Shown here in pieces: positions 26,413-41,771 of a stretch of 51,830 nt of DNA. Source of the DNA: Eubacteriales bacterium (lineage in GTDB: Bacteria; Bacillota; Clostridia; Lachnospirales; Lachnospiraceae); contig JAUNOP010000014.1 in the NCBI GenBank assembly GCA_030537135.1, positions 1-51,830 on the forward strand. The letters are read 5' to 3'. A program made the position numbers and the translations under genes. The notes beneath the pieces are model-generated. The model saw only the letters and a program-made list of their open reading frames with translations, was not told the origin of the DNA and ran no database searches. Within the stretch, counting starts at the first letter, position 1. Every line of letters begins with the position of its first letter.

Positions 26413-26440
26413 ATTATAGCAAAACAGATTTCTTTGTCAA
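26413..26440 (-). promoter_or_regulatory. Consensus promoter of the MATE gene
   Basis: Minus strand TTGACA (26435-26440), 16-nt spacer, TATAAT (26413-26418). Both hexamers are perfect. Confidence 0.85.
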
Positions 26441-26530: not shown

Positions 26531-27082
26531 CTAAAAAAGCGCATAAAATCCCCTTATCAGTTTAGCAACCTCCGGGATTTCCAGACCAGCTTCCTCATAT
26601 ATATCTGGATCTACAATCATACATTTAACATTGCTGTCAAGAGAAATTCCATAGTTCTTTCCATCATATATACCTGTATCCAGAAGACTCTCCGAAATAG
26701 ATGACGTATCGATCAGGCCGCTCTCAATATATTCATCCAATGGCTCCATCAATCCCTCTGTCATGTACTGCATACAATCTCCTGCTCCTATGAAACCCTG
26801 AAATACATCTGGCATATTGTCTGATGTAGCTGAAATAGAAAGGTTCTCATAGTAAGAATCAAATGGATAAAAGCTGGTTTCCACAATAATATCTGGATTC
26901 TTTTTCATAAAAAGCTCCACCGCTTTATTCGTTTTATCTGCTCGATCCTGACTTCCCCACCATGCAAAACGAATTGTTACCGGTTCTTCGCTTTCTTCCG
27001 CAAAAACCATCTGACTTCCCCCTGCCAGACTTCCCGCAACCATAGTGGCTGTTAAAAGAGTGGTGACTATTTTTTTCTTCAT
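26531..27082 (-). pseudogene. Truncated extracellular sugar-binding protein (family 1)
   Basis: 183 residues. A signal peptide (MKKKIVTTLLTATMVAGS, probable cut after VFA) is followed by the first lobe of a family 1 solute-binding protein (EPVTIRFAWWGSQDRADK). Intact relatives are about 420 residues. After GLEIPE the protein diverges into VAKLIRGFYALF and stops. No lipobox cysteine is visible. AAGGAGAAGG precedes ATG 27082. The joint at about 26560 meets DNA with GGGCTGTTTCATGAAA-like, IS-end-like sequence. The matching permease genes are absent. Confidence 0.75.
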
Positions 27083-27319: not shown

Positions 27320-28810
27320 CTATAGCCTTTCCCCTATTCCTCCCAAATAATACACATTTTCATATCCCAGATATACCAGACTGTTGACAGACTGGCTGCT
27401 GCGCTTTCCTGTTGCACAGTAAACAATTATTGCCTGCTTCTTATCCTTCAGATGCTTCTCTGCAATTCCATGCACGTCACAGTATGGAAGATTAATTGCC
27501 CCCTCCAGGTGCTTTTTTTGAAATTCCTCCCTGCTTCGCACGTCTACCAGAACTCCGCCCTCTGCTGCCAGCTGTAGGGCATATTCCATACTGATTTTTT
27601 TGAGTTCCTTTTTCTGTATTTCCCCTCTGTCCCATGGGTCTGCTACTTCTAAGGCGCGCTCACTGGTTACTCTGTATATTTCCGCATCCTTTGCAGCTAC
27701 GGTAAGCACAATTTCCTCTGCGCAGGGACACTCCTCATGCCTCCACAGATTTCGGACAGACTTGATTTTTCCTGCAAGTCCGGCTTCCTTCCAGCTTATT
27801 TTCATTTGCAGGGGTTCCTTGCTTCTGTTCAAAAAGGCGATTGCCTTCTTATTTGATGTTTTCTGACCCAAATCCTTTATCCAGATTTCTCCCAGCAGTG
27901 TTCCGTCCTCTGCTCGGAATTCTTTGATTGGATAAGCCTGAAGACATGCCTCATCCTGATTAATTGCAATCAGCTCTCTATTTTTTACAATTTCCAGCGT
28001 TTCCCGTCTCATCTGCGTCAGGTCGCAGCCCAGCATAAGCGGTGTAGACATCATGCACCACATGGAGAAATGTGTTTTTTCTTCCTCCAAGCTCAGACCA
28101 TTGCCAATCTGCATCATATCCAAATCATTTACATGGCCGGGACTGCAATATCTGGCAAGGGGCTTAATATTGTCAATCTGATGAAGCACTGATGCAAAAT
28201 CCGGTGCAATATCTGCTCCTGTTCGCCAGGAATCAGCTACCTGCGCTGCCCAGGGGCCCGGAAATTGCCAGCGGCAAATATTATAGACAAGACACCGATT
28301 GGTTCTATGGCGGATTTCATCAACAATTCGTCCAATTTTTGAATACTGTTCTTCTTCATCCAAACCCAGGCGTACGCCTCCGCACCAGTCTACTTTGATA
28401 AAATCAAAGCCAAACTCATCCAGATACATATTCAAATCCTGTTCCTCGTGTCCATAAAGTCCCACATCAAGCCCATTGCCGCCCTCATTGTCATAGTAAA
28501 AGCCGCATGTCTTATCGCCGGCATCTGAATAGATTCCTGCTTTTAATCCGATTTCATGAGCATAGTCAGCAAGAACCTTAATACCATTTGGAAAGCGTTC
28601 TTTATGTATCATCAGTCTGCCGTCAGAGGCTCTTCCGCCAAAAAATCCATCATCTATATTGGCATAAATATAACCGCAATCAGCTAATCCTGTGTCCACC
28701 AATGCATCCATCTGTTTTTTAATCAGTTCCTCGTTAATATGAGTTCTAAAGCAATTCCAGGATGCCCAGCCCATTAACGGCGTCTTTCTATACAGCTTCT
28801 GTTCCTCCAT
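27320..28810 (-). CDS. GH27 alpha-galactosidase-like enzyme fused to a rhodanese domain
   Basis: 496 residues. Positions 1 to about 385 form a GH27 clan-D glycosidase: PLMGWASWN at the N-terminus, IDDGFF, nucleophile D141 in KVDWC, acid/base D200 in WRTGAD. It should release terminal alpha-galactose (or beta-L-arabinopyranose, another GH27 activity). Residues about 403-496 are a complete rhodanese domain with VDVRSREEF and the active-site loop CATGKRS (C465 to R470), joined without an apparent break or frameshift. GGAGGAAAG precedes ATG 28810. No signal peptide. It is the third gene of the GH51-GH43-GH27 run. Confidence 0.88.
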   Translation of the reverse strand: MEEQKLYRKTPLMGWASWNCFRTHINEELIKKQMDALVDTGLADCGYIYANIDDGFFGGRASDGRLMIHKERFPNGIKVLADYAHEIGLKAGIYSDAGDKTCGFYYDNEGGNGLDVGLYGHEEQDLNMYLDEFGFDFIKVDWCGGVRLGLDEEEQYSKIGRIVDEIRHRTNRCLVYNICRWQFPGPWAAQVADSWRTGADIAPDFASVLHQIDNIKPLARYCSPGHVNDLDMMQIGNGLSLEEEKTHFSMWCMMSTPLMLGCDLTQMRRETLEIVKNRELIAINQDEACLQAYPIKEFRAEDGTLLGEIWIKDLGQKTSNKKAIAFLNRSKEPLQMKISWKEAGLAGKIKSVRNLWRHEECPCAEEIVLTVAAKDAEIYRVTSERALEVADPWDRGEIQKKELKKISMEYALQLAAEGGVLVDVRSREEFQKKHLEGAINLPYCDVHGIAEKHLKDKKQAIIVYCATGKRSSQSVNSLVYLGYENVYYLGGIGERL

Positions 28811-28867: not shown

Positions 28868-30652
28868 TCACGTCCAGTCTGCCACCTTCATTTTTCCCTC
28901 TGAATCAAAGATAAGCTCTCTTATGCAGACTTCTCGGTTAAATCCCTTTCCAGCCGCATATTTTTTCACTGGAGTTGCAAATCTGTGAAATGCAATCAGA
29001 TAGCGGTCAGATTCTGGAATATGGCAGATGGAATGATGTCCTGTACCAAGAGAATCTTCCTTTTTTGCAAGAAGGACTCCTTCATACTGGATGGGTCCGT
29101 ACAGGCTGTCTGATATACCATAATTTACATGATACTCTTCACTTCTGGTATCATCGCAGGACCATGAAAAATAGTATCTGCCATTACGTTTGAGTACTGT
29201 TATAGCCTCTCGAAAATCAAACGCTCCCTGCAAATTTACAAGTGTATCCTCTTCTATATGAAGCATATCATCCGAAAGCTTTACAATAGCTGGTTCTCCG
29301 TTTCCGAACAAAAGATATGTGTCCTCTCCCTCAGTGTAGATGGACGGATCAATTGTCTGATTCATGGCTATCCCTTTGCTATGCATGAATTCCATGGTAA
29401 GCAGCGGTTCTTTCTCGGCGGTAAAAGGACCTGTAGGAGAATCTGCCAGCGCTGCGCCAATACAGGAAACGCCTTGCTTATTCTTACCACAGAAATAGAA
29501 ATAATATTTTCCGTTTTTCTGTGCAATACAAGGCGCCCAGGCTGCTCCGATGCTCCAGGGTACCTGTTTTGACGCCAGATCCAAAATTTGTCCCTGGTTC
29601 TTAAAATATTTTCCATCTTTTGAAGAAAAAACAGAAAACGTTGTGCCAGACCATCCTGCAAATCCATCTGTCGTAGGGTAAAGGTAAAAGTTCCCATCAA
29701 AGTATGAAAGGTCTGGATCCGCATACAGCCCATCTATCACCGGATTGTCCTCGCCAAATGCTTTCCAGAGCCTGTCATATTCCTCATCGTTCAGGCGGAG
29801 TACTCCTCCATGGCGCTTTTTATTTTTTCCAAATTCATATTGTTCTTGTGATAAAACCTGGAATTCTCCTGACGCAAGATTTTGTGTTAAAAGAGGCAAA
29901 TATCCTTTCCCTTCCTGAAATTGATCTATAATCAGGCACCAGGTTCGATTATCCGGGAGAAGATAGCATTCCGGTCCTTCCACGCCCTTCCATTCATCCA
30001 GCGTCTTGCTTTCCACCTTCTCAAAGGCTCCATTTATTTCTCTTCCCTTTTCCAGAAGAATACGGCTGTTGGTCTCATCCTTGGAGAATCGATAATAGCA
30101 GTCCTGTGCATACACTATCGTCGTATCAATCACATGATTCTCTCGCTCCATATAAATAAAAGGCTCTGTAAATTCTCGAAAGTCATCCGTATACGTACCA
30201 TAAATTCGCTGCTTAGAATCAGCTTCTCCCGGAAGCTTTACTCTGGAAGAGTAGAACACAAAAAATGCCTCTTTGTGTTCATCATACACTGCCTCTGGAG
30301 CCCACACGCACCCAGCTCCCTGCAGGCCTACCCGGCATGACCGTTCCTTTGACCAGTGTACCAAATCTTCTGATTCCCATACAATCAGATCACGGCTTCC
30401 CTTCCGCTGTGCTGCATCCCAGCCTTTGCCAGCCTCAATGCGCAGGTCTGTTGCAATCAAATAATACTTCTTTTTCTTAGGATCGCGAACCAGAAAAGGA
30501 TCGCGAACTCCTTTTTCTCCAATTTTTGAATACAGCACTGGCTTTCCGCTGTTTAGATCCTTCCAGAACAATCCGTCCTTGCTGAGTGCAAAGTAAATCT
30601 GTTCCCCATCCTTGTGTTCCCCTGTAAAATGTACAAATAAATATCCGCTCAT
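28868..30652 (-). CDS. Double GH43-like beta-propeller glycosidase
   Basis: 594 residues holding two GH43-type five-bladed propellers. The first (about 1-290) has D51 in RDPFLV, WAPE at 117-120, D166 and an EGPE glutamate near 215-218. The second (about 297-594) has YADPDLSYFDG with D302, AAWAP, TIDPSIY and an EAI glutamate. Both therefore keep a plausible catalytic triad. Known GH43 activities are arabinofuranosidase, arabinanase and xylosidase; an arabinose target is inferred from the GH51 next door. GGAG precedes ATG 30652 by 7 nt. No signal peptide. Confidence 0.85.
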   Translation of the reverse strand: MSGYLFVHFTGEHKDGEQIYFALSKDGLFWKDLNSGKPVLYSKIGEKGVRDPFLVRDPKKKKYYLIATDLRIEAGKGWDAAQRKGSRDLIVWESEDLVHWSKERSCRVGLQGAGCVWAPEAVYDEHKEAFFVFYSSRVKLPGEADSKQRIYGTYTDDFREFTEPFIYMERENHVIDTTIVYAQDCYYRFSKDETNSRILLEKGREINGAFEKVESKTLDEWKGVEGPECYLLPDNRTWCLIIDQFQEGKGYLPLLTQNLASGEFQVLSQEQYEFGKNKKRHGGVLRLNDEEYDRLWKAFGEDNPVIDGLYADPDLSYFDGNFYLYPTTDGFAGWSGTTFSVFSSKDGKYFKNQGQILDLASKQVPWSIGAAWAPCIAQKNGKYYFYFCGKNKQGVSCIGAALADSPTGPFTAEKEPLLTMEFMHSKGIAMNQTIDPSIYTEGEDTYLLFGNGEPAIVKLSDDMLHIEEDTLVNLQGAFDFREAITVLKRNGRYYFSWSCDDTRSEEYHVNYGISDSLYGPIQYEGVLLAKKEDSLGTGHHSICHIPESDRYLIAFHRFATPVKKYAAGKGFNREVCIRELIFDSEGKMKVADWT

Positions 30653-30790
30653 TGCAGTCTCCTTCCCAGGCATTTTCTTTGTAAGATGAATTCCTTGTCT
30701 TCCTTTCGCCAGATGGCTTACGTCTGGAGCAATCCTGTGTTCCAGTATCTATGCATACTTTCCTGCTCCTCTTTGCGCAATCAGTCTCAT

Positions 30791-33133
30791 CTATACTGAC
30801 TGTAATCTAAGTACACTAACAGACAATGGCTGCATTTTCCAGCAAAGGCTTCCTTGCACAGGCAAAACCTCTCTGACCTCTGGCACAAATTTCTGCACAT
30901 CTCCCATATGCGCACATGCCTCCTTTTCATAGCCTTCGATAACAAAAGCCTTTCCTTTTACTGCCTCTGCATCTTTCAGGCAAATTTCTGTCTCCTGTGC
31001 AACTGGAAGCAGATTCACCAGCTTCAGAATAATTTCACCTGTATGTTTATCCATGCTGGCAGCAGAATATATAGGCTTTGCCAGAATCGGCCGTACCTGT
31101 GTCTCCAATTCCAGCTCTCCATCGAGCCATACAGACACTCTCTGACCTCTCACCTGGATTTGCACATCATAGATACGATTCTGTTCTACGCTTCTAGATC
31201 TCTGAGTCAGAACAGAATTCCTTCCATTGATGTCTTCTCCGAGCATGGAATCTGCATTTTCCCAGCCGCCGAACTGCCAAAACAGACGATTTTCTTTATC
31301 CTTTTGCGCAAAGCTTACTCGAAATCCCTTCCATCCATCCAGCTCCCTTGCTTTCAGGCAAATCATATAATTGTTTCCAGAGAAAGCTCCCAGGCTTTCA
31401 CTGATCTCTCCAATATTCAGGTGTATCCTTGGAATCTGGATATGCTCCCCGGTGTCCTCATTTATGAGAATAGTCTCTGTAAATTCCATCTCTGTCTCAT
31501 CTCCGGAAAGTACGACCATCCCGCTCATCCGTTCCTGTTCATCCATTCCGATATTGACCAGCTCTCCAGTATTTTCCCATTCCTGCTCAAGCAGTATGTC
31601 GCCCTGATGCTCCATAAATAGCTTCTGTATATAATAATTCGGCGTGTACATAATCTGATGATTATCGTACCAGAGCATATCTGGCTGCCAATTCACATAG
31701 TCCACATTGCACAAAAGCGGAGCATAGCAGGCAAGCTCCACAGCAGGCGCATTATTCTGCAGTCCAGTCATAAATGCTGCCTCTGCCAGCGCATTGAACC
31801 ATGTATTTGCCTTTGACGCATATTCGCCCACAAATACATGCGGCCTTTCCGGAGAAAATGCATCGTATCGGTCTGTATTTGCAATAAACCATTCCGGTGA
31901 CTGATAATAATGCTCGTCCACAAGATCCGCACCATCCTCTACAGCGCTTTTCCATCCTCTTTCATACTCTTTTCCAGCTGCAAAGGGACCGCTGGTGCCT
32001 ATTAAGCGTATTTCTGGATAAGCCTCTTTGATTGCCTTCTGAAACAATGGAAATCGCTCAAAAAATGCTTCTCCGATCTCTTCGTTTCCGATTCCCAGAT
32101 ATTCCAGCCCAAAAGGCTGTGGGTGTCCCATTTCTGCTCTCTTTTTGCCCCATGTGCTGTCCACAGCTCCATTAGCAAATTCGATCAGATCCAGTGCATC
32201 CTGGATAAATTCCTGAAGCAGCTCTCCCTCTGCTGCCTGACGATGGTGGGGATCATAGCCTCCGGGCAGCACTGGAAGAGGCTTTGCCCCTATATCCTCG
32301 CAGAATAGAAAGTATTCATAATATCCCAGACCAAGCGTCTGATTATAGCTCCAATTGCTTCTTCTGGCCGGTCGTTCCCAAAGCGGTCCAATGGAATTCT
32401 TCCAGCGGTACTGGCTGTTTCTATCGTCCGCATTCAGCGAGCCATCATGGATCAGGCAGCCTCCTGGGAAGCGCATAAATTTGGGATGCATATCCTCCAG
32501 TGCTTCAGCCAGATCTCTTCTTAATCCATTTGTCCGACCTTTATAGGTATCTGCCGGAAATAAAGAAACAAAATCAAACTGTACTTCTCCCTTGCCGCAT
32601 ACAGTCAGCTTCAAACGGCCGCACAGGTCTGTGGCCGGAGCCAAAAAGGTCAAATCGTATTTTTTCCAATGCTTTGTAACCCTAAGCGCCTGTTCTGCAT
32701 AGACGCTGCCGTCAGCATCACAAAGCGATACAAGAATCTCAGGAATTCCTGAATCTTCAGCACTTCTTGCAAAGCAGGTAAAATAATACGTTTCGTTTGA
32801 TTTATAAGGAATTCCAGAATTAAATCCAGTGTTCACCACACCAGCCTGTTCCCCATCCTGCTTTACTTTTATAACAAGATAATGCGGATTTTTGCTGCTG
32901 ACGGCATCTCCTTCTGTTACATAAATTTCGGTCAGATTTTCCCTTCCAAAGCATTCCCATGCAGTCAGCGCATTATAATCTGGATGGTCAATGGGAGCAA
33001 ATTCAAAAGAACGATTCTGAATTAGCTCCGCATAAAGTCCTCCATCAGCTGCATGATTTAAATCTTCAAAAAATATTCCAAACAAACTGCCAAGTTCTGC
33101 CTTTTTATTCTTAGTATCTATCGTAAGTTTCAC
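30791..33133 (-). CDS. GH51 alpha-L-arabinofuranosidase
   Basis: 780 residues, intracellular. The catalytic barrel has acid/base E351 in GIGNEE and nucleophile E437 in VFVGEY. A beta-rich region at about 60-195 looks like a carbohydrate-binding insertion between the N-terminal strand and barrel, and the C-terminal beta domain is complete. It removes terminal arabinofuranose from arabinan, arabinogalactan or arabinoxylan oligosaccharides. The start is GTG 33133 with GGAGG about 9 nt upstream. First gene of the hydrolase run; no regulator is adjacent. Confidence 0.92.
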   Translation of the reverse strand: MKLTIDTKNKKAELGSLFGIFFEDLNHAADGGLYAELIQNRSFEFAPIDHPDYNALTAWECFGRENLTEIYVTEGDAVSSKNPHYLVIKVKQDGEQAGVVNTGFNSGIPYKSNETYYFTCFARSAEDSGIPEILVSLCDADGSVYAEQALRVTKHWKKYDLTFLAPATDLCGRLKLTVCGKGEVQFDFVSLFPADTYKGRTNGLRRDLAEALEDMHPKFMRFPGGCLIHDGSLNADDRNSQYRWKNSIGPLWERPARRSNWSYNQTLGLGYYEYFLFCEDIGAKPLPVLPGGYDPHHRQAAEGELLQEFIQDALDLIEFANGAVDSTWGKKRAEMGHPQPFGLEYLGIGNEEIGEAFFERFPLFQKAIKEAYPEIRLIGTSGPFAAGKEYERGWKSAVEDGADLVDEHYYQSPEWFIANTDRYDAFSPERPHVFVGEYASKANTWFNALAEAAFMTGLQNNAPAVELACYAPLLCNVDYVNWQPDMLWYDNHQIMYTPNYYIQKLFMEHQGDILLEQEWENTGELVNIGMDEQERMSGMVVLSGDETEMEFTETILINEDTGEHIQIPRIHLNIGEISESLGAFSGNNYMICLKARELDGWKGFRVSFAQKDKENRLFWQFGGWENADSMLGEDINGRNSVLTQRSRSVEQNRIYDVQIQVRGQRVSVWLDGELELETQVRPILAKPIYSAASMDKHTGEIILKLVNLLPVAQETEICLKDAEAVKGKAFVIEGYEKEACAHMGDVQKFVPEVREVLPVQGSLCWKMQPLSVSVLRLQSV

Positions 33134-33678: not shown

Positions 33679-35376
33679 TCAGTTCGTATTTATTTCTGAT
33701 AGCAATCCGTTTTCCACCTTGTAAACCCGGTCTGCAATCGCCATTGTGGATTCCCGATGAGAAACAAGAATAATGCTTTTCCTGCTTTTTTGCTCTGCAA
33801 GAGCCTTCAGAATAATCCCTTCATTGATACTGTCCACATTGCTTGTGGGCTCGTCAAGCAGGATCAGCTCTCGGCCGCTCAGAAAGGCCCTTGCCAGACC
33901 AATCCTCTGTTTTTCGCCCGCTGACAGATGATTTCCCAAAGCTCCCACTCTTGTTCTGTAGCCGTCTGGAAGAGTCATAATAAAATCGTGCACAGACGCC
34001 ATGCGGCATGCCCTCTCCAGCTCCTCCTGTATGGCGTCTGGCTTTGCAATTCTCAGATTCTCTTCAATCGTGTCGTCAAACAAATAGGTCGTCTGACTTA
34101 CCATTGTTACGTTGTCAAGAAGACTGTCTGAATTGATAGTTTCAATATCCATTCCATTATAATTGATTTCTCCGCTGTTTTTTGTCCAAAATCTGAGCAA
34201 AAGCTTAAGCAGAGTGGATTTTCCGCAGCCGCTTTCTCCGACAATTCCAATAATCTCGCCTTTATCCGCATGCATACAAATATTCTTAAGCACAGGTTCA
34301 TTTTTCTTATAGGAAAACGACAGGTTTTTCACGTCAAGCTGTTCATAAACAATGCTGCTGCCATTTCTGATTTCCTCCACTGCCGGCTGCTCTTCCATCA
34401 GGTTCAAAACTCTGTCGCCGCTGGCCAAAGTCTGTGTCAGATTACCAGGCAAGGCAGAAATCGCAATGACAGGTCCAAAGCTTCCGAATACTGCAACCAC
34501 GCCAATTATCATTTTTCCAGCTGAAAGCTGTCCTGTTCTCATCAGCGCAATGCCAACTACAAGCGAGAGAACAATAAAGACCGTTACAATCAGCTCTGTC
34601 GCAGCAGCAGCCTTTGCAGACGCATCCTTCATCTTCTTTGTCTCCTTCAGAAGAATTTCTGAACGCCGATTTACCTCTTTTTCTCTTTTTTCACCGGCAT
34701 TGTGAAACAAAATATCATAAATGCCCTTGATACTGTCCAGAAAGTAGGAATGAAAGGATGCAAATTCGCGCCGATAGTTTACCCCCGCCTCCTGTAATGC
34801 TCCTGATGAAATCACAGGCACGGCGATTCCGACCGTAAGATAGCCAAGCAGCGCCGTCAATGCCAGATATGGATTCACACCAAAGAAAATGAACAGGAAA
34901 ACAGATAAGGAAACAAGGACTGCAATACAAATCGGAGACAATGTATGCGCGTAGAAAACCTCCAGCGTCTCAATATCCGACGTCAGCATTGCAATAATGC
35001 TTCCCTTTTGTTTGCTCTCCAGCTTTGCCGGACAAAGTTTTCTGAGAACTCTGAAAATTTTGTCTCTCAGACTCGCCAGCAGATGAAACGCAATATAGTG
35101 ATTGCTGTACTGTTCTATGTATCGCAGGAGTCCTCGCAGTATTCCGCAGCCCACGGCAAGTGCGATGATGCCCCCATAGGAGAGAGAAATCTGCTCTCCC
35201 AGTACCTTTGCCACTCCAAGTGCGCCGGATAGTGTTACGCCCATAGCACAGAGATAGCCAATGCTTCCATTGAGAACAGCCAGGAGCAGAACAATGGAGA
35301 AGCTTCCCAGAAGGCTGATAAGCTGCACCATAATACTGACGCCGCCTCTGCGCAGTTTTTGTTTTACCTTACTCAT
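33679..35376 (-). CDS. ABC exporter half-transporter, second subunit (CydC-like)
   Basis: 565 residues. An N-terminal six-helix exporter domain (about 1-310) and a nucleotide-binding domain with Walker A GESGCGKST, signature LSAGEKQR, Walker B LILLDEP and the H-loop SHRES. The start at 35376 overlaps the stop of the upstream subunit by 4 nt (ATGA), so the two form a heterodimer. The substrate is unknown; similarity to CydCD-type exporters is general only. Confidence 0.87.
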   Translation of the reverse strand: MSKVKQKLRRGGVSIMVQLISLLGSFSIVLLLAVLNGSIGYLCAMGVTLSGALGVAKVLGEQISLSYGGIIALAVGCGILRGLLRYIEQYSNHYIAFHLLASLRDKIFRVLRKLCPAKLESKQKGSIIAMLTSDIETLEVFYAHTLSPICIAVLVSLSVFLFIFFGVNPYLALTALLGYLTVGIAVPVISSGALQEAGVNYRREFASFHSYFLDSIKGIYDILFHNAGEKREKEVNRRSEILLKETKKMKDASAKAAAATELIVTVFIVLSLVVGIALMRTGQLSAGKMIIGVVAVFGSFGPVIAISALPGNLTQTLASGDRVLNLMEEQPAVEEIRNGSSIVYEQLDVKNLSFSYKKNEPVLKNICMHADKGEIIGIVGESGCGKSTLLKLLLRFWTKNSGEINYNGMDIETINSDSLLDNVTMVSQTTYLFDDTIEENLRIAKPDAIQEELERACRMASVHDFIMTLPDGYRTRVGALGNHLSAGEKQRIGLARAFLSGRELILLDEPTSNVDSINEGIILKALAEQKSRKSIILVSHRESTMAIADRVYKVENGLLSEINTN

Positions 35377-37100
35377 ATTCTCACCTCCGCATAACCCTGT
35401 TCCAGCTGTTTCTGCCTGCGGTAAAGCTTTGCATAGCCTCCGTTTGTCTCCATCAAGGAAGCGTGGCTGTCGCACTCCTTTACCTCTCCCTTTTCCAGAT
35501 AATAAATCTGATCTGCCGGAACCACATTTTCCAGTCTGTGAGAAATCACAATAACATTCTTTGTCTTTGAAAGCACCTTAATATTTTTCATGATGATCGT
35601 CTCACTCTCAATATCAATATTGCTGGTGGCTTCATCAAAAATATAGATATCTTTATCAGCAACCAGATTAACAGCCAATGCCAGCCTCTGCTTCTGGCCG
35701 CCGGAGATATTGACTGCATCCTCAGAGATTGTCTTATCGAGTCCGCCGTTTTCCTGTATAAATGCCCAGAGATTCACCCTTTCCAGCGCCTCTTTCATCT
35801 GCCCCTCGGAAGCCTTCGGATCAGCCAGAAGGAAGTTGTTTCTCACCGTATCATTGAAAATATAGGTATTATAGCTCACCACTGCAATATGGGCGTAAAA
35901 ATCTGTGCGTGAAAGATGGTTCAGCAAAGTTCCCCCTATTCGCACACTTCCCTTCTGCGGAAGATAATTTCCGTCTACAATACCCACAATGGTGGATTTT
36001 CCGCAGCCAGATTCGCCGACAATCGCACTCATGCCTTTGGCCGGAAAGGTCATACTGATATTTTTCAGCACATCCCTGCTTCCGTCATAAGAAAAAGTCA
36101 CGTCCTTAAGCACCACGTCCCTGCCGCTCATCTTGTTTTCTCCCCATTGAGGTTCTGGCATGTCCAGCAGACGGATAATTTTCTTTCCTGCGCTCACTCC
36201 GTTCATTGCCACATGAAACGCGCTTCCAAATGCCCGAAGCGGAAGAAAGAAATCCACTGCCACCAGCATCAGAAACAGCGCTGCTGTAACAGAAAGCTTT
36301 CCTTTTGAAAGATCCAGAACAGTAAATGCAATGCCAAGTCCTGCGCCGCCGTAAGCCACCAGATCCATGATTGTAGTGCTGGCAAGCTGCATTGTAAGAA
36401 CCTTCATGGTAATCACCCGGAATTCCTCTGCCCTCTGATTCATTCTCTCATGCTGTCTGGCATCTGCCTTAAAAATCTTCAATTCCTTTAATCCCTGCAC
36501 ACTGTCAAGAAAATAGTCTCCCATAGAGGTATACTTATCCCAGTATTTTGCAAAAATCTTTTTCGCCCATTTTGACACTGCAATAATGGAAACCGGAATA
36601 AGAGGGACACAGCCAAGCAGCACTGCCGCCACCTTGACGTCCTGTCTCACTGAAACCAAAAACAGAAGAACCGGTGCCAGCATTGCATAGAAAAACTGAG
36701 GAATATAGGATGAGAAATACAAATCCAGCTGTTCGATTCCTTCCATGCTTACCTGCGTAAGTCCGGCCATACTCATTTCATCTGTGCTTTTCATGCCAAG
36801 ACGTACAATTTTATTATAGGTTCTGGCGCGCAGCTCTCTTTTTGCTTCACATCCGATGCGGTCTTTAAAGGAAGCGGTACAGCGAGTACACAGATACCTC
36901 ATGAGAATCGCCGCCGCGCCGGCGAGCGCGACCCAGGCATAGCTCGACAGCTCGGCAGCGTCTAATGTTAATTGGATGGACGTGCAAATGCACATCGTAA
37001 TTCCCAGATTCGCAAGCAGCCCTCCCAGCATAAAAAGGACTGCATAAACAATGTATTTTCTATTACTGCCAAGGAGTTTTATCAGCTCTTTATCAATCAT
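35373..37100 (-). CDS. ABC exporter half-transporter, first subunit (CydD-like)
   Basis: About 575 residues with six membrane helices (about 15-290), then an ATPase domain with GESGCGKST, ISGGQKQR, IYIFDEATS and SHRLE. The EQLDLYFSSYIPQFFYA segment is typical of CydD-like exporters. ATG 37100 is preferred because GGAG lies 9 nt upstream; ATG 37115 and a TTG at 37133 are also in frame. No cytochrome bd genes are near, so a CydDC role is not supported by context. Confidence 0.87.
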   Translation of the reverse strand: MIDKELIKLLGSNRKYIVYAVLFMLGGLLANLGITMCICTSIQLTLDAAELSSYAWVALAGAAAILMRYLCTRCTASFKDRIGCEAKRELRARTYNKIVRLGMKSTDEMSMAGLTQVSMEGIEQLDLYFSSYIPQFFYAMLAPVLLFLVSVRQDVKVAAVLLGCVPLIPVSIIAVSKWAKKIFAKYWDKYTSMGDYFLDSVQGLKELKIFKADARQHERMNQRAEEFRVITMKVLTMQLASTTIMDLVAYGGAGLGIAFTVLDLSKGKLSVTAALFLMLVAVDFFLPLRAFGSAFHVAMNGVSAGKKIIRLLDMPEPQWGENKMSGRDVVLKDVTFSYDGSRDVLKNISMTFPAKGMSAIVGESGCGKSTIVGIVDGNYLPQKGSVRIGGTLLNHLSRTDFYAHIAVVSYNTYIFNDTVRNNFLLADPKASEGQMKEALERVNLWAFIQENGGLDKTISEDAVNISGGQKQRLALAVNLVADKDIYIFDEATSNIDIESETIIMKNIKVLSKTKNVIVISHRLENVVPADQIYYLEKGEVKECDSHASLMETNGGYAKLYRRQKQLEQGYAEVRI

Positions 37101-37193
37101 TTTCTTCTGCTCCATCCTGTCTTTTTCATCCAATTAGTTTTTCCTAACTTCAATATTTACTATATATCATAAAAGATTTTGGATGTCAACACA

Positions 37194-39565: not shown

Positions 39566-41608
39566 TCAGGCTAATTCTGAGGGTTTATCCACCTGATATT
39601 CTCCCCATGCAGATTTAACAGCTGCCTGAGAGAAATCTGGCTGTTCATCATAGCTTTCTACTGTAATCACATAGTCGCTGTTGCCCTCAACATATATCGT
39701 ACCGTCTGTTCCCTGAATGGTCACTGCGTTTCCATTCTCATCCGCAATTGTTCCTGCGCAGCTTAAATGAGTAAGCGTACTGTCTCCTGTGACTGTCCAG
39801 ACTGCCTGCTCATCCAGGCTGAGGCTGCAATAGCCGTCTCCTCCCTCTCCTGCCCAGGTTTCATCCTGAATAATCGCTCCTGTGAGAGTGCTGTCCTGTG
39901 TCATATAAAAATCCAGGTCACTGATAGAATCCCAGATAACATTACCTTCCATGTTCTGGCTCACAGCAGTAAAGAGGCAGTCAGAGCCATTTGCCCCTGC
40001 ATTTCCCCAGCCTCTGTCATTGGTGTTTCCTGTACACTGAAGAAAGAATTCGCCATCGTCTGCATAAGTGATATCCACATCAGACAGCGTAATCGTACAT
40101 TCTGTATTTGTCGTGTAGAACATTCCGCCATTCTCAGTAGTAAGGCTTCCGCCATTCATCTCGAAAATGCTGTTTCCGACCTCTGAGTCTCCGGACATAC
40201 TCTGATAGAGAATCACATTCCAGGTACAATCATTTTGTTCCAGATCCTGCATATCTCCTGTGAGATCGCAGTCAAAAAGATGCAGGGAATTTCGTCCTTC
40301 TATGCACACAGCCTCAGAGCCTGTGGCAGAAAGCTGGGCACTGCTTACAGCGATATCGGCTGTACAGTATACAGCAGGAGACCCTACCCCATTAGAGGTA
40401 TAAGTTCCTCCCTCCACAACCATGGTTCCGCCTCCCCGATCGCTTCGGATGGCTGCTGCTGATTCTCCGTCTGTCTCTACATTCAGATTCCAGGCATACA
40501 AGGTTCCTCCGCCTGCTGCATGAATTCCCCCTGAGGTATCCTGCTCTGTGGAAATAGTGATATCTGACGCATATATAGTTCCGTCCCCATAGGCAAAAAG
40601 ACCTGCTCCGCCGCGGCTGTCTGTTGTAATGCTGCCTGTATTCAGATACGCTGTTCCGTCTGTTGCAAGTACTGCCGCACCTACTCCATAAAAGCTGGAG
40701 GTATCTCCGCCTGTACTGTCCTGAGAGCTTCTTTCTACTGTAATATTTTCCAGACTTACCTGCGCGCCGTTCAAAATATGAACTGCATTTTCATCTGTTC
40801 CTGATGATGTATAGGAGGTTCCCTCTGCCTCTGTGTTCTCGGTAAATTCTGTTGCTGCCTCATAGCTTTCCACTGCCTGACTCTGTCCGCCCGGATTTCC
40901 CATGCCATCCGGCTTATCCATGGAAAGAAGCGTCACAGTCTCTGCATTTCCTTCGCTGTCAAGAAGCACCAGCACATAATCTCCCTCCTGAATCTCAGAC
41001 AGAGAAATACTCTCTGACGCGCCTTCTCCCTCTGGTTTTTCCGGCGGCTGCTCTCTACCCTCTCCTTCCGGCTGTTCTGACGGCTGCTCTCCGCCTTCCC
41101 CTTCTGGCTCTCCTGATGGTTGCTGCTCACCTTCCGGTTTTTCCGGCGGCTGTCCTCCGCCTTCTCCAGGCTGTCCGCCAAGTCCTCCCATGCTCTGTCT
41201 GGTAAGTACTGTATTTTCTGTCACAGTGATATCCATGGATTCGCCGGTCAGATTGAGCATAGACGTCTCCTGCCCGGATAATGCTTCTGCCTGCGTTTCT
41301 TCTCTGGTTCCCACTGCAATTGTCAGTGTGTTCTCACCCACTGCAGTTACCTTTCCATAAATCCCCTCTTCCTGTTGCGAAGCGCCGTTTTCCTCTGCTT
41401 CTGTCTGTGCTTCCAGGCCTTCTTCAGAACTGCTTTCCTCTGTCTTTTCTTCTGAACCCTCTTCTGCGTCGGTTTCTTCTGTATCCTCTTCCTGTGCATT
41501 TTCTATCTGCAAGCTGTTTTCTTCTGCCAGCACAGGAAACGCGGATATTCCAATTGAGCTGACCGTGAGCATCATTCCCAGCATCATTGCCATATATTTA
41601 TTTTCCAT
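39566..41608 (-). CDS. Secreted acidic beta-helix-like protein with Pro/Glu repeats
   Basis: 680 residues. Signal peptide (about 1-28, ending PVLA), an acidic Glu-rich linker (about 30-85), a beta domain (GIYGKVTAVGENTLTIAVG), then a low-complexity stretch with repeats of the type QPPEKPEGEG (about 145-205). The remainder is many short beta-strand repeats with G-D-G-T, N-A-x-I and similar patterns, suggesting a right-handed parallel beta-helix. No LPXTG motif, membrane anchor or catalytic residues are recognised. Function unknown; extracellular adhesin or glycan-binding roles are possible. AGG precedes ATG 41608 by about 9 nt; ATG 41629 is in frame but lacks a ribosome site. Confidence 0.75.
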   Translation of the reverse strand: MENKYMAMMLGMMLTVSSIGISAFPVLAEENSLQIENAQEEDTEETDAEEGSEEKTEESSSEEGLEAQTEAEENGASQQEEGIYGKVTAVGENTLTIAVGTREETQAEALSGQETSMLNLTGESMDITVTENTVLTRQSMGGLGGQPGEGGGQPPEKPEGEQQPSGEPEGEGGEQPSEQPEGEGREQPPEKPEGEGASESISLSEIQEGDYVLVLLDSEGNAETVTLLSMDKPDGMGNPGGQSQAVESYEAATEFTENTEAEGTSYTSSGTDENAVHILNGAQVSLENITVERSSQDSTGGDTSSFYGVGAAVLATDGTAYLNTGSITTDSRGGAGLFAYGDGTIYASDITISTEQDTSGGIHAAGGGTLYAWNLNVETDGESAAAIRSDRGGGTMVVEGGTYTSNGVGSPAVYCTADIAVSSAQLSATGSEAVCIEGRNSLHLFDCDLTGDMQDLEQNDCTWNVILYQSMSGDSEVGNSIFEMNGGSLTTENGGMFYTTNTECTITLSDVDITYADDGEFFLQCTGNTNDRGWGNAGANGSDCLFTAVSQNMEGNVIWDSISDLDFYMTQDSTLTGAIIQDETWAGEGGDGYCSLSLDEQAVWTVTGDSTLTHLSCAGTIADENGNAVTIQGTDGTIYVEGNSDYVITVESYDEQPDFSQAAVKSAWGEYQVDKPSELA

Positions 41609-41771
41609 AAAAACGTACCTGCCTTTCATTTTTTCTCTATGATTCCTATCATATCCTGTAAACCTTAGACGAACCTAAGAAAACAGTCCTGTTTTTATGA
41701 AGTTCCTGTGAACAGCCCCATAATCTCCTATCACGGCGGCTGTCTCTTCCTTTCTGGCGTTTCAAAGGCTC

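Follow-up and report, generated by a model that had tools for sequence, protein, structure and literature searches.

Accessory domains of glycosidases are usually regarded as binding or anchoring modules. An α-galactosidase joined in one chain to an unrelated second enzyme, a sucrose kinase, is reported for AgaSK of Ruminococcus gnavus. The kinase of AgaSK uses the product sucrose and the glycosidase belongs to family GH36. To our knowledge, none of the sulfurtransferases TSTD1, RDL1 and YgaP is attached to a glycosidase. Rhodaneses tethered to another enzyme occur in bacterial persulfide dioxygenase–rhodanese fusions, which, judging from a title cited in PMC10135228, have sulfur chemistry in both of their halves.

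The protein described here joins a GH27 glycosidase to a C-terminal rhodanese domain and is encoded in a window (the whole stretch of DNA that was analysed) of 51,830 nucleotides from a Lachnospiraceae genome. In contrast to those of AgaSK, its two halves have no known metabolic link. No description of a glycosidase–rhodanese fusion was found in titles and abstract openings, a search for which subscription journals were mostly outside the scope.

The fusion gene and its surroundings

The sequence-only reading had assigned 27320..28810 to a single frame encoding a GH27 enzyme and a complete rhodanese, and this was confirmed (Table 1). The 496-residue product of the (−) strand matched three Pfam domains above their cut-offs: Melibiase_2 at residues 10–286 (E = 8.1e-42), Melibiase_C at residues 308–381 (E = 1.6e-8) and Rhodanese (PF00581) at residues 409–491 (E = 3.5e-17; 63.2 bits, cut-off 22.2). 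No cut-off was reached among the 16 NCBIfam families listed for the protein. The mechanical ORF opens at GTG 28861, whereas GGAGGAAAG stands immediately 5′ of ATG 28810.

Table 1. Coordinates of the fusion gene, its parts and its flanking features in the window
Feature	Position	Strand	Basis or remark
GH27–rhodanese fusion gene	27320..28810	(−)	One open frame, ATG 28810 to stop 27320, 496 residues
GH27 catalytic barrel and C-terminal β-sandwich, residues 10–382	27665..28783	(−)	Pfam Melibiase_2 and Melibiase_C; 1uas alignment; fold match
Linker, residues 383–403, weakly conserved	27602..27664	(−)	Mean majority fraction 0.37
Rhodanese domain, residues 404–496, loop CATGKRS with Cys465	27323..27601	(−)	PF00581 match
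Intrinsic-terminator-like site directly 3′ of the fusion stop codon	27249..27294	(−)	20-pair stem and T run
GH43 gene upstream of the fusion, same direction	28868..30673	(−)	PF04616, E = 9e-56, two stretches
α-L-Arabinofuranosidase gene upstream of the fusion, same direction	30791..33133	(−)	ASD1_dom, E = 6.3e-71; Alpha-L-AF_C, E = 1.4e-22

A structure of the compact fusion containing both domains was predicted with a pLDDT of 91.7 and a pTM of 0.90. Since such a pTM is high for two loosely linked domains, this single value points to a defined packing of one domain against the other.

Terminator-like sites between 26000 and 33500 numbered 11 against 5.6 expected, and promoter-like sites near the fusion showed no excess (12 against 13.9 in shuffled sequence). 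Because a terminator-like stem lies 3′ of the gene, and the GH43 gene and the α-L-arabinofuranosidase gene (which we take to be GH51) lie upstream of it in the same direction, the gene order makes the fusion look like the last gene of an arabinose- and galactose-trimming cluster.

Other features of the window were recorded on the same strand. A solute-binding protein gene at 26531–27082 (−) ends at 183 residues, covers 121 of 307 profile positions and is followed by 340 bases with stops in every frame; on account of the short match and of these stops it was read as a remnant. A 12/12 TTGACA-16-TATAAT element with a TG extension lies at 26440–26413 (−), upstream of a MATE transporter gene. Two neighbouring ABC exporter genes occupy 33679–37133 (−), the first of which scored 311 bits as CydC (thiol reductant exporter), slightly below the cut-off of 329, while the second was covered by the Pfam scan only. 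A frame of 687 residues at 39566–41629 (−) matched neither Pfam (E 0.01) nor NCBIfam (E 1e-5).

Homologues, distribution and selection

Genome contigs were scanned and 155 relatives were confirmed, the best 80 of which gave 79 distinct loci, all of which were sorted. Homologues of the GH27–rhodanese join, for which a search had been proposed together with the original observation, were found: the compact fusion stands in one open frame at 41 of these 79 loci, on 40 contigs. One of the 41 (L112, 100% identity) is the window's own record or a near-identical one, and in four (L071, L084, L092 and L105) the frame extends to the end of the locus. Two further compact fusions, L090 (8001–9461) and L113 (8001–9442), have an interrupted GH27 frame and an open rhodanese frame with the Cys kept. 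Among the same 79 loci there were six secreted GH27 proteins in which the rhodanese is internal (L118 and L120–L124), two unfused Clostridia GH27s (L114 and L116), four loci cut or broken close to contig ends (L103, L115, L117 and L125) and 24 relatives (23 from Bacteroidetes by title and one from Sedimentisphaerales) in which neither the protein nor the fetched flanks gave a rhodanese by profile (E ≤ 1e-4). L113 comes from a named strain (TWA4), and contig JAGAMG010000029.1 holds two diverged GH27–rhodanese copies about 10 kb apart (L079 and L094), both with the Cys.

Within the genus, 56 of 64 genomes gave a match at E ≤ 0.001 and two (the window's genome and one other) carried the whole fusion, the second copy being 86% identical across residues 3–495; this copy and the 40 end-to-end homologues described below make the fusion more than a product of chance. 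Of 391 genomes of the class, 19 matched at E ≤ 1e-60 and 12 carried the whole fusion, counting the window's own and one with an internal TGA. Two of the 19 matches are partial (G870 and G574) and five, from one genus, have GH27 aligned only to about residue 358–384. In family f14 a rhodanese of the same subfamily was present in a frame of 489–546 residues in 20 of 70 genomes, as classed by rhodanese and frame length. GH27 relatives were present in 37 records of a plasmid collection, and in every one the match spanned less than 80% of the query. The distribution of the fusion is patchy across genus and class. Its carriers are Clostridia, many of animal-gut origin, and several record titles from the contig scan name herbivores such as goat, roe deer, water buffalo and horse. 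A compact fusion 66% identical to that of the window was also present in a record titled Treponema (L075), which may reflect transfer or mis-binning.

An alignment of 41 rows was built from the window protein and 40 compact homologues, with L112, L090 and L113 excluded. The homologues align with the window protein from end to end at 46–86% identity. Asp141, Asp200, Asp423, Arg425, Cys465 and Gly468 are invariant, and the equivalents of Asp423, Arg425 and Cys465 are also kept in all seven secreted members. The mean majority fraction is 0.74 in the GH27 half, 0.60 in the rhodanese and 0.37 in the linker. Values of dN/dS (NG86) were 0.038–0.247 for the rhodanese in all 14 close pairs. For the GH27 half, dS was finite in 12 of these pairs, where the ratio was 0.066–0.207. 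The linker lay above both domains in seven of 12 pairs. Between the window protein and its 86% identical relative the dS of the GH27 half was saturated and the dN/dS of the rhodanese was 0.054.

Both halves are under purifying selection, and the rhodanese is conserved less than the GH27 half yet shows no decay. The earlier argument that the rhodanese is kept by selection is upheld by these ratios and by the presence of the Cys in 41/41 compact and 7/7 secreted proteins, and free decay of the domain in homologues, which had been named as grounds for refutation, was not seen. The patchy distribution and the interrupted GH27 frames of L090 and L113 might suggest a neutral read-through or an assembly artefact, a reading to which we assign a negligible probability, since it is refuted by a single open frame at 41 of 79 loci on 40 contigs with selection on both halves. 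The simple read-through fusion that had been offered as an explanation is excluded by the retention of the Cys and by purifying selection across homologues. The GH27–rhodanese protein is a real, conserved two-domain architecture of Clostridia.

The GH27 half

Membership of GH27 follows from the barrel and sandwich profiles, both above their Pfam cut-offs, and from the fold match to rice α-galactosidase (1uas). The rice enzyme matched residues 9–382 of the fusion in sequence (E = 9.8e-73) and in fold (TM 0.92 by target length), with the difference that it is a chain of 362 residues without a rhodanese. Asp141 and Asp200, which we take to be the nucleophile and the acid/base, respectively, line up with its KxD and SWRTxxD segments. 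The sequence-only reading had described a complete GH27 enzyme with this pair and an intact-looking rhodanese with Cys465, which agrees with the 1uas alignment and with the invariance of all three in the 41 rows.

A β-L-arabinopyranosidase was considered in place of an α-galactosidase because the neighbours in the window belong to arabinose-releasing families. The GH27 β-L-arabinopyranosidase SaArap27A (3a21) is the second-best match, the scores being near-equal (249 bits for the rice α-galactosidase and 243 bits for SaArap27A), and it has the KVDWCGG and CG(F/Y)YY segments in common with the fusion. It differs in having Glu (NIDEGWW) where the fusion has Asp54 (NIDDGFF). In the partial text of PMC4598101, Asp at the key specificity position of GH27 goes with α-galactosidases and a single residue is insufficient to fix the specificity. 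Residue 54 of the fusion, which is Asp and not Glu or Ile, was equated with this position by our own matching. Asp54 counts against a β-L-arabinopyranosidase, although as one residue it is not decisive, and the GH27 half is more likely an α-galactosidase than an arabinopyranosidase.

Redox sensing had also been suggested as the reason for the fusion, and sulfane sulfur from the rhodanese might regulate or protect the GH27 half, for example via Cys102, Cys143, Cys179 and Cys252. These four residues are present in 41/41 compact and 7/7 secreted fusions, and Cys143 adjoins the KVD motif. The same four, however, are present in 24/24 Bacteroidetes-type and 2/2 unfused Clostridia GH27s, so that none of them goes with the rhodanese; Cys20, Cys222 and Cys262, which are common in the compact rows, likewise occur in both unfused Clostridia rows. 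No Cys column of the GH27 alignment tracked the presence of the rhodanese and could thus supply a sulfur partner, and GH3 proteins bear rhodaneses as well. Regulation of the GH27 half through its Cys residues appears quite unlikely; for redox sensing as such, the result speaks neither for nor against.

The rhodanese half

The rhodanese loop of the fusion reads C465-A-T-G-K-R-S (CATGKR, residues 465–470) and is thus a six-residue loop with Cys and with Arg at the loop end, where Arg, Thr or Ser is allowed. The loop Cys and Gly are present in 41/41 compact fusions and the loop-end Arg in 40/41. CATGKRS occurs in 19 of the 41 rows, CSTGKRS in six, CATGKRA in four and other loops in 12. Loops of the same CxxGKR type are given for TSTD1 (CQMGKR), RDL1 (CASGKR) and YgaP (CQAGKR) in Table 4 of PMC8533005, the partial text of which also states that RDL2 requires the loop-end Arg for thiosulfate use. 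Lys469 is present in 37/41 compact and 7/7 secreted fusions, against 0/27 stand-alone rhodaneses. The catalytic Cys is found in 27/27 stand-alone rhodaneses too, so that its retention argues for activity and not for a special role. Judged by these residues, the rhodanese of the fusion is very probably an active sulfurtransferase.

The rhodanese fold could also have been kept as a non-catalytic module for packing, oligomerisation or binding. Such a role would suit the confident two-domain model (pTM 0.90), the replacement of the loop Gly by Ala in six of the seven secreted GH27 forms (CSAAKRS or CSSAKRS) and the inactive rhodaneses that are seen as interaction mediators (PMC10135228, partial text). 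A scaffold, however, has no need of a reactive Cys, and Cys465 persists together with Asp423 and Arg425 in every compact and secreted fusion (41/41 and 7/7); we therefore regard a purely non-catalytic role as unlikely.

Neighbouring genes and cellular location

Start positions were compared in 40 of the 41 compact rows, with L119 left out. The window protein and 22 other rows begin no more than 15 residues ahead of the barrel segment GWxSWN (L092 lies at the locus edge), while in 17 of the 41 the mechanical start lies further ahead, and hydrophobic stretches are present in some of these (L079, L085 and L105). As the window protein appears to have no signal peptide, it is probably cytosolic; in the other 18 of the 41 rows, which are the 17 with early starts and L119, a signal may be present.

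Adjacent genes were taken as those on the same strand within 300 bases, which gave 49 genes at 43 loci (L112 left out). Five of the 49 encode GH78 rhamnosidases, and GH28, GH43, GH88, GH95, GH106 and esterase domains were found among nine adjacent genes that were scanned individually. A carbohydrate gene is adjacent on the same strand at at least 11 of the 43 fusion loci as a raw count, and many adjacent genes are housekeeping genes. A homocysteine S-methyltransferase gene is adjacent once, and of the 74 families of the 49 genes, the 25 that were listed include no recurring sulfur-metabolism family.

Coupling of the fusion to sulfated glycans, another of the explanations put forward originally, was not borne out. 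A GH88 gene lies downstream of the fusion at L071 and PF00884 matches are present in 39 of 43 fusion-bearing genomes, both of which would fit such a coupling. Against it, four of the 43 genomes have no PF00884 match, 58 of the 98 matches lie in frames of at least 577 residues, which are presumably lipoteichoic-acid-synthase-like, and a match in a frame of 430–560 residues, the length expected of sulfatases, was obtained in only 10 of 43. No sulfatase was present among the 25 of 74 adjacent-gene families listed (49 genes), a sample that a rare one could escape, and no genetic linkage of sulfatases to the fusion gene was seen in this sample. Rhodaneses, moreover, act on sulfane sulfur and not on sulfate esters. 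We consider the coupling very improbable.

Secreted relatives, GH3 proteins and evolutionary history

The secreted GH27–rhodanese form comprises seven cases in all, the seventh being a protein of 2020 residues from genome G242. Four of the seven (L067, L118, L120 and L122) were scanned with Pfam, and each contains GH27, Melibiase_C, Rhodanese and NPCBM domains; L121, L123 and L124 align with the scanned proteins to the end. The six aligned secreted proteins open with a hydrophobic segment, as judged by eye and by hydropathy. A model of the secreted form calculated from six rows (pLDDT 64.3, pTM 0.36) was set aside.

A GH27 tree was calculated by a quick method from 89 rows, including 11 of 12 chosen outgroup proteins. 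One Clostridia clade of 54 rows (SH-aLRT 95) holds the compact and the secreted fusions, and 24 unfused Bacteroidetes-type rows are separate (SH-aLRT 95). Inside the Clostridia clade the unfused pair L114/L116 (99) is the sister of 43 compact or cut rows, and L119, the most divergent compact fusion, falls among the secreted rows on a long branch; owing to long branches the placement of L119 and of L067 is unsure. As L114 and L116 have no rhodanese, the GH27 half can do without one. The simplest story would be one gain of the rhodanese followed by its loss in L114/L116, and two gains in GH27 are possible.

The rhodanese trees rest on 92 columns and are weak. In the first, a clade unites the 41 compact rows (92/75), and a single clade of all 48 fused rows was not rejected (p-AU 0.575). 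In the second, for which GH3-type rows were added and the compact rows were cut from 41 to 20, the resolution was poorer: the compact rows were united in 30% of bootstrap trees, and p-AU was 0.329 for a clade of compact and secreted rows.

The GH3-type proteins come from the same class, are secreted, have about 1800–2000 residues and consist of GH3 and Fn3-like domains, often CBM6 or Big_2, and a C-terminal rhodanese. GH3 and rhodanese are in a single frame in L174, L209, L214, L215 and L216; L175, L210, L211, L213, L217 and L218 have part of this make-up, with no GH3 catalytic domain above the cut-off in the frame scanned. Three such rhodanese proteins are encoded in the single-contig genome G649. 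The Cys is kept in the GH3-type rhodanese loops that were inspected. Seven GH3-type rows, of which only L174 and L209 have a GH3 domain in frame, form a clade of their own in the second rhodanese tree (99/93). A single origin of all glycosidase rhodaneses was not rejected (p-AU 0.448), but the separate clade makes two captures likelier than one, and the GH3 rhodanese was probably captured separately from that of GH27. L212:2185-3090 encodes a short protein that combines an S-layer homology domain with a rhodanese and is perhaps a surface-anchored sulfurtransferase.

Proposed function

We think it fairly likely that the fusion is a cytosolic α-galactosidase with a tethered working sulfurtransferase that has a general role where plant glycosides are opened. 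The GH27 half, most likely a cytosolic α-galactosidase, would remove galactose caps from imported plant oligosaccharides, with pectin, arabinan or arabinogalactan side chains as its substrates. For the CxxGKR single-domain rhodanese we infer sulfurtransferase activity; its Cys465 would most likely accept sulfane sulfur, with thiosulfate or a persulfide as the donor, and hand it on to a thiol or to some other small molecule. Speculatively, tethering would place sulfane-sulfur chemistry at the site of glycoside opening without any part in bond cleavage, and this chemistry might be the handling of persulfide or sulfide or the detoxification of a reactive product such as cyanide. A general role is favoured because rhodaneses sit on secreted GH3 proteins as well as on GH27 proteins of both the compact and the secreted form.

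A narrower role would be the conversion by the tethered rhodanese of cyanide to thiocyanate, or the detoxification of another toxic aglycone from plant glycosides. The herbivore sources named in several record titles are consistent with this, as are the rhodaneses on secreted GH3 proteins, GH3 being a family that includes β-glucosidases. We know of no cyanogenic α-galactoside, however, which counts against a cyanide-specific role, and the informative neighbour genes point to pectin side chains; the probability of this narrower role is accordingly small, and the general role remains the preferred reading.

On a wider view, Clostridia might possess a general sulfane-sulfur module on glycosidases, recruited at least twice (by GH27 and GH3) and active inside and outside the cell, which would link glycoside opening to persulfide, sulfide or cyanide chemistry; we put this forward tentatively and as rather doubtful. 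If true, the module would be an accessory domain of a functional class new to carbohydrate enzymes. The occurrence of a conserved, apparently active sulfurtransferase on two glycosidase families, with and without a signal peptide, suggests an unrecognised link of the breakdown of plant fibre to the chemistry of sulfur (or cyanide).
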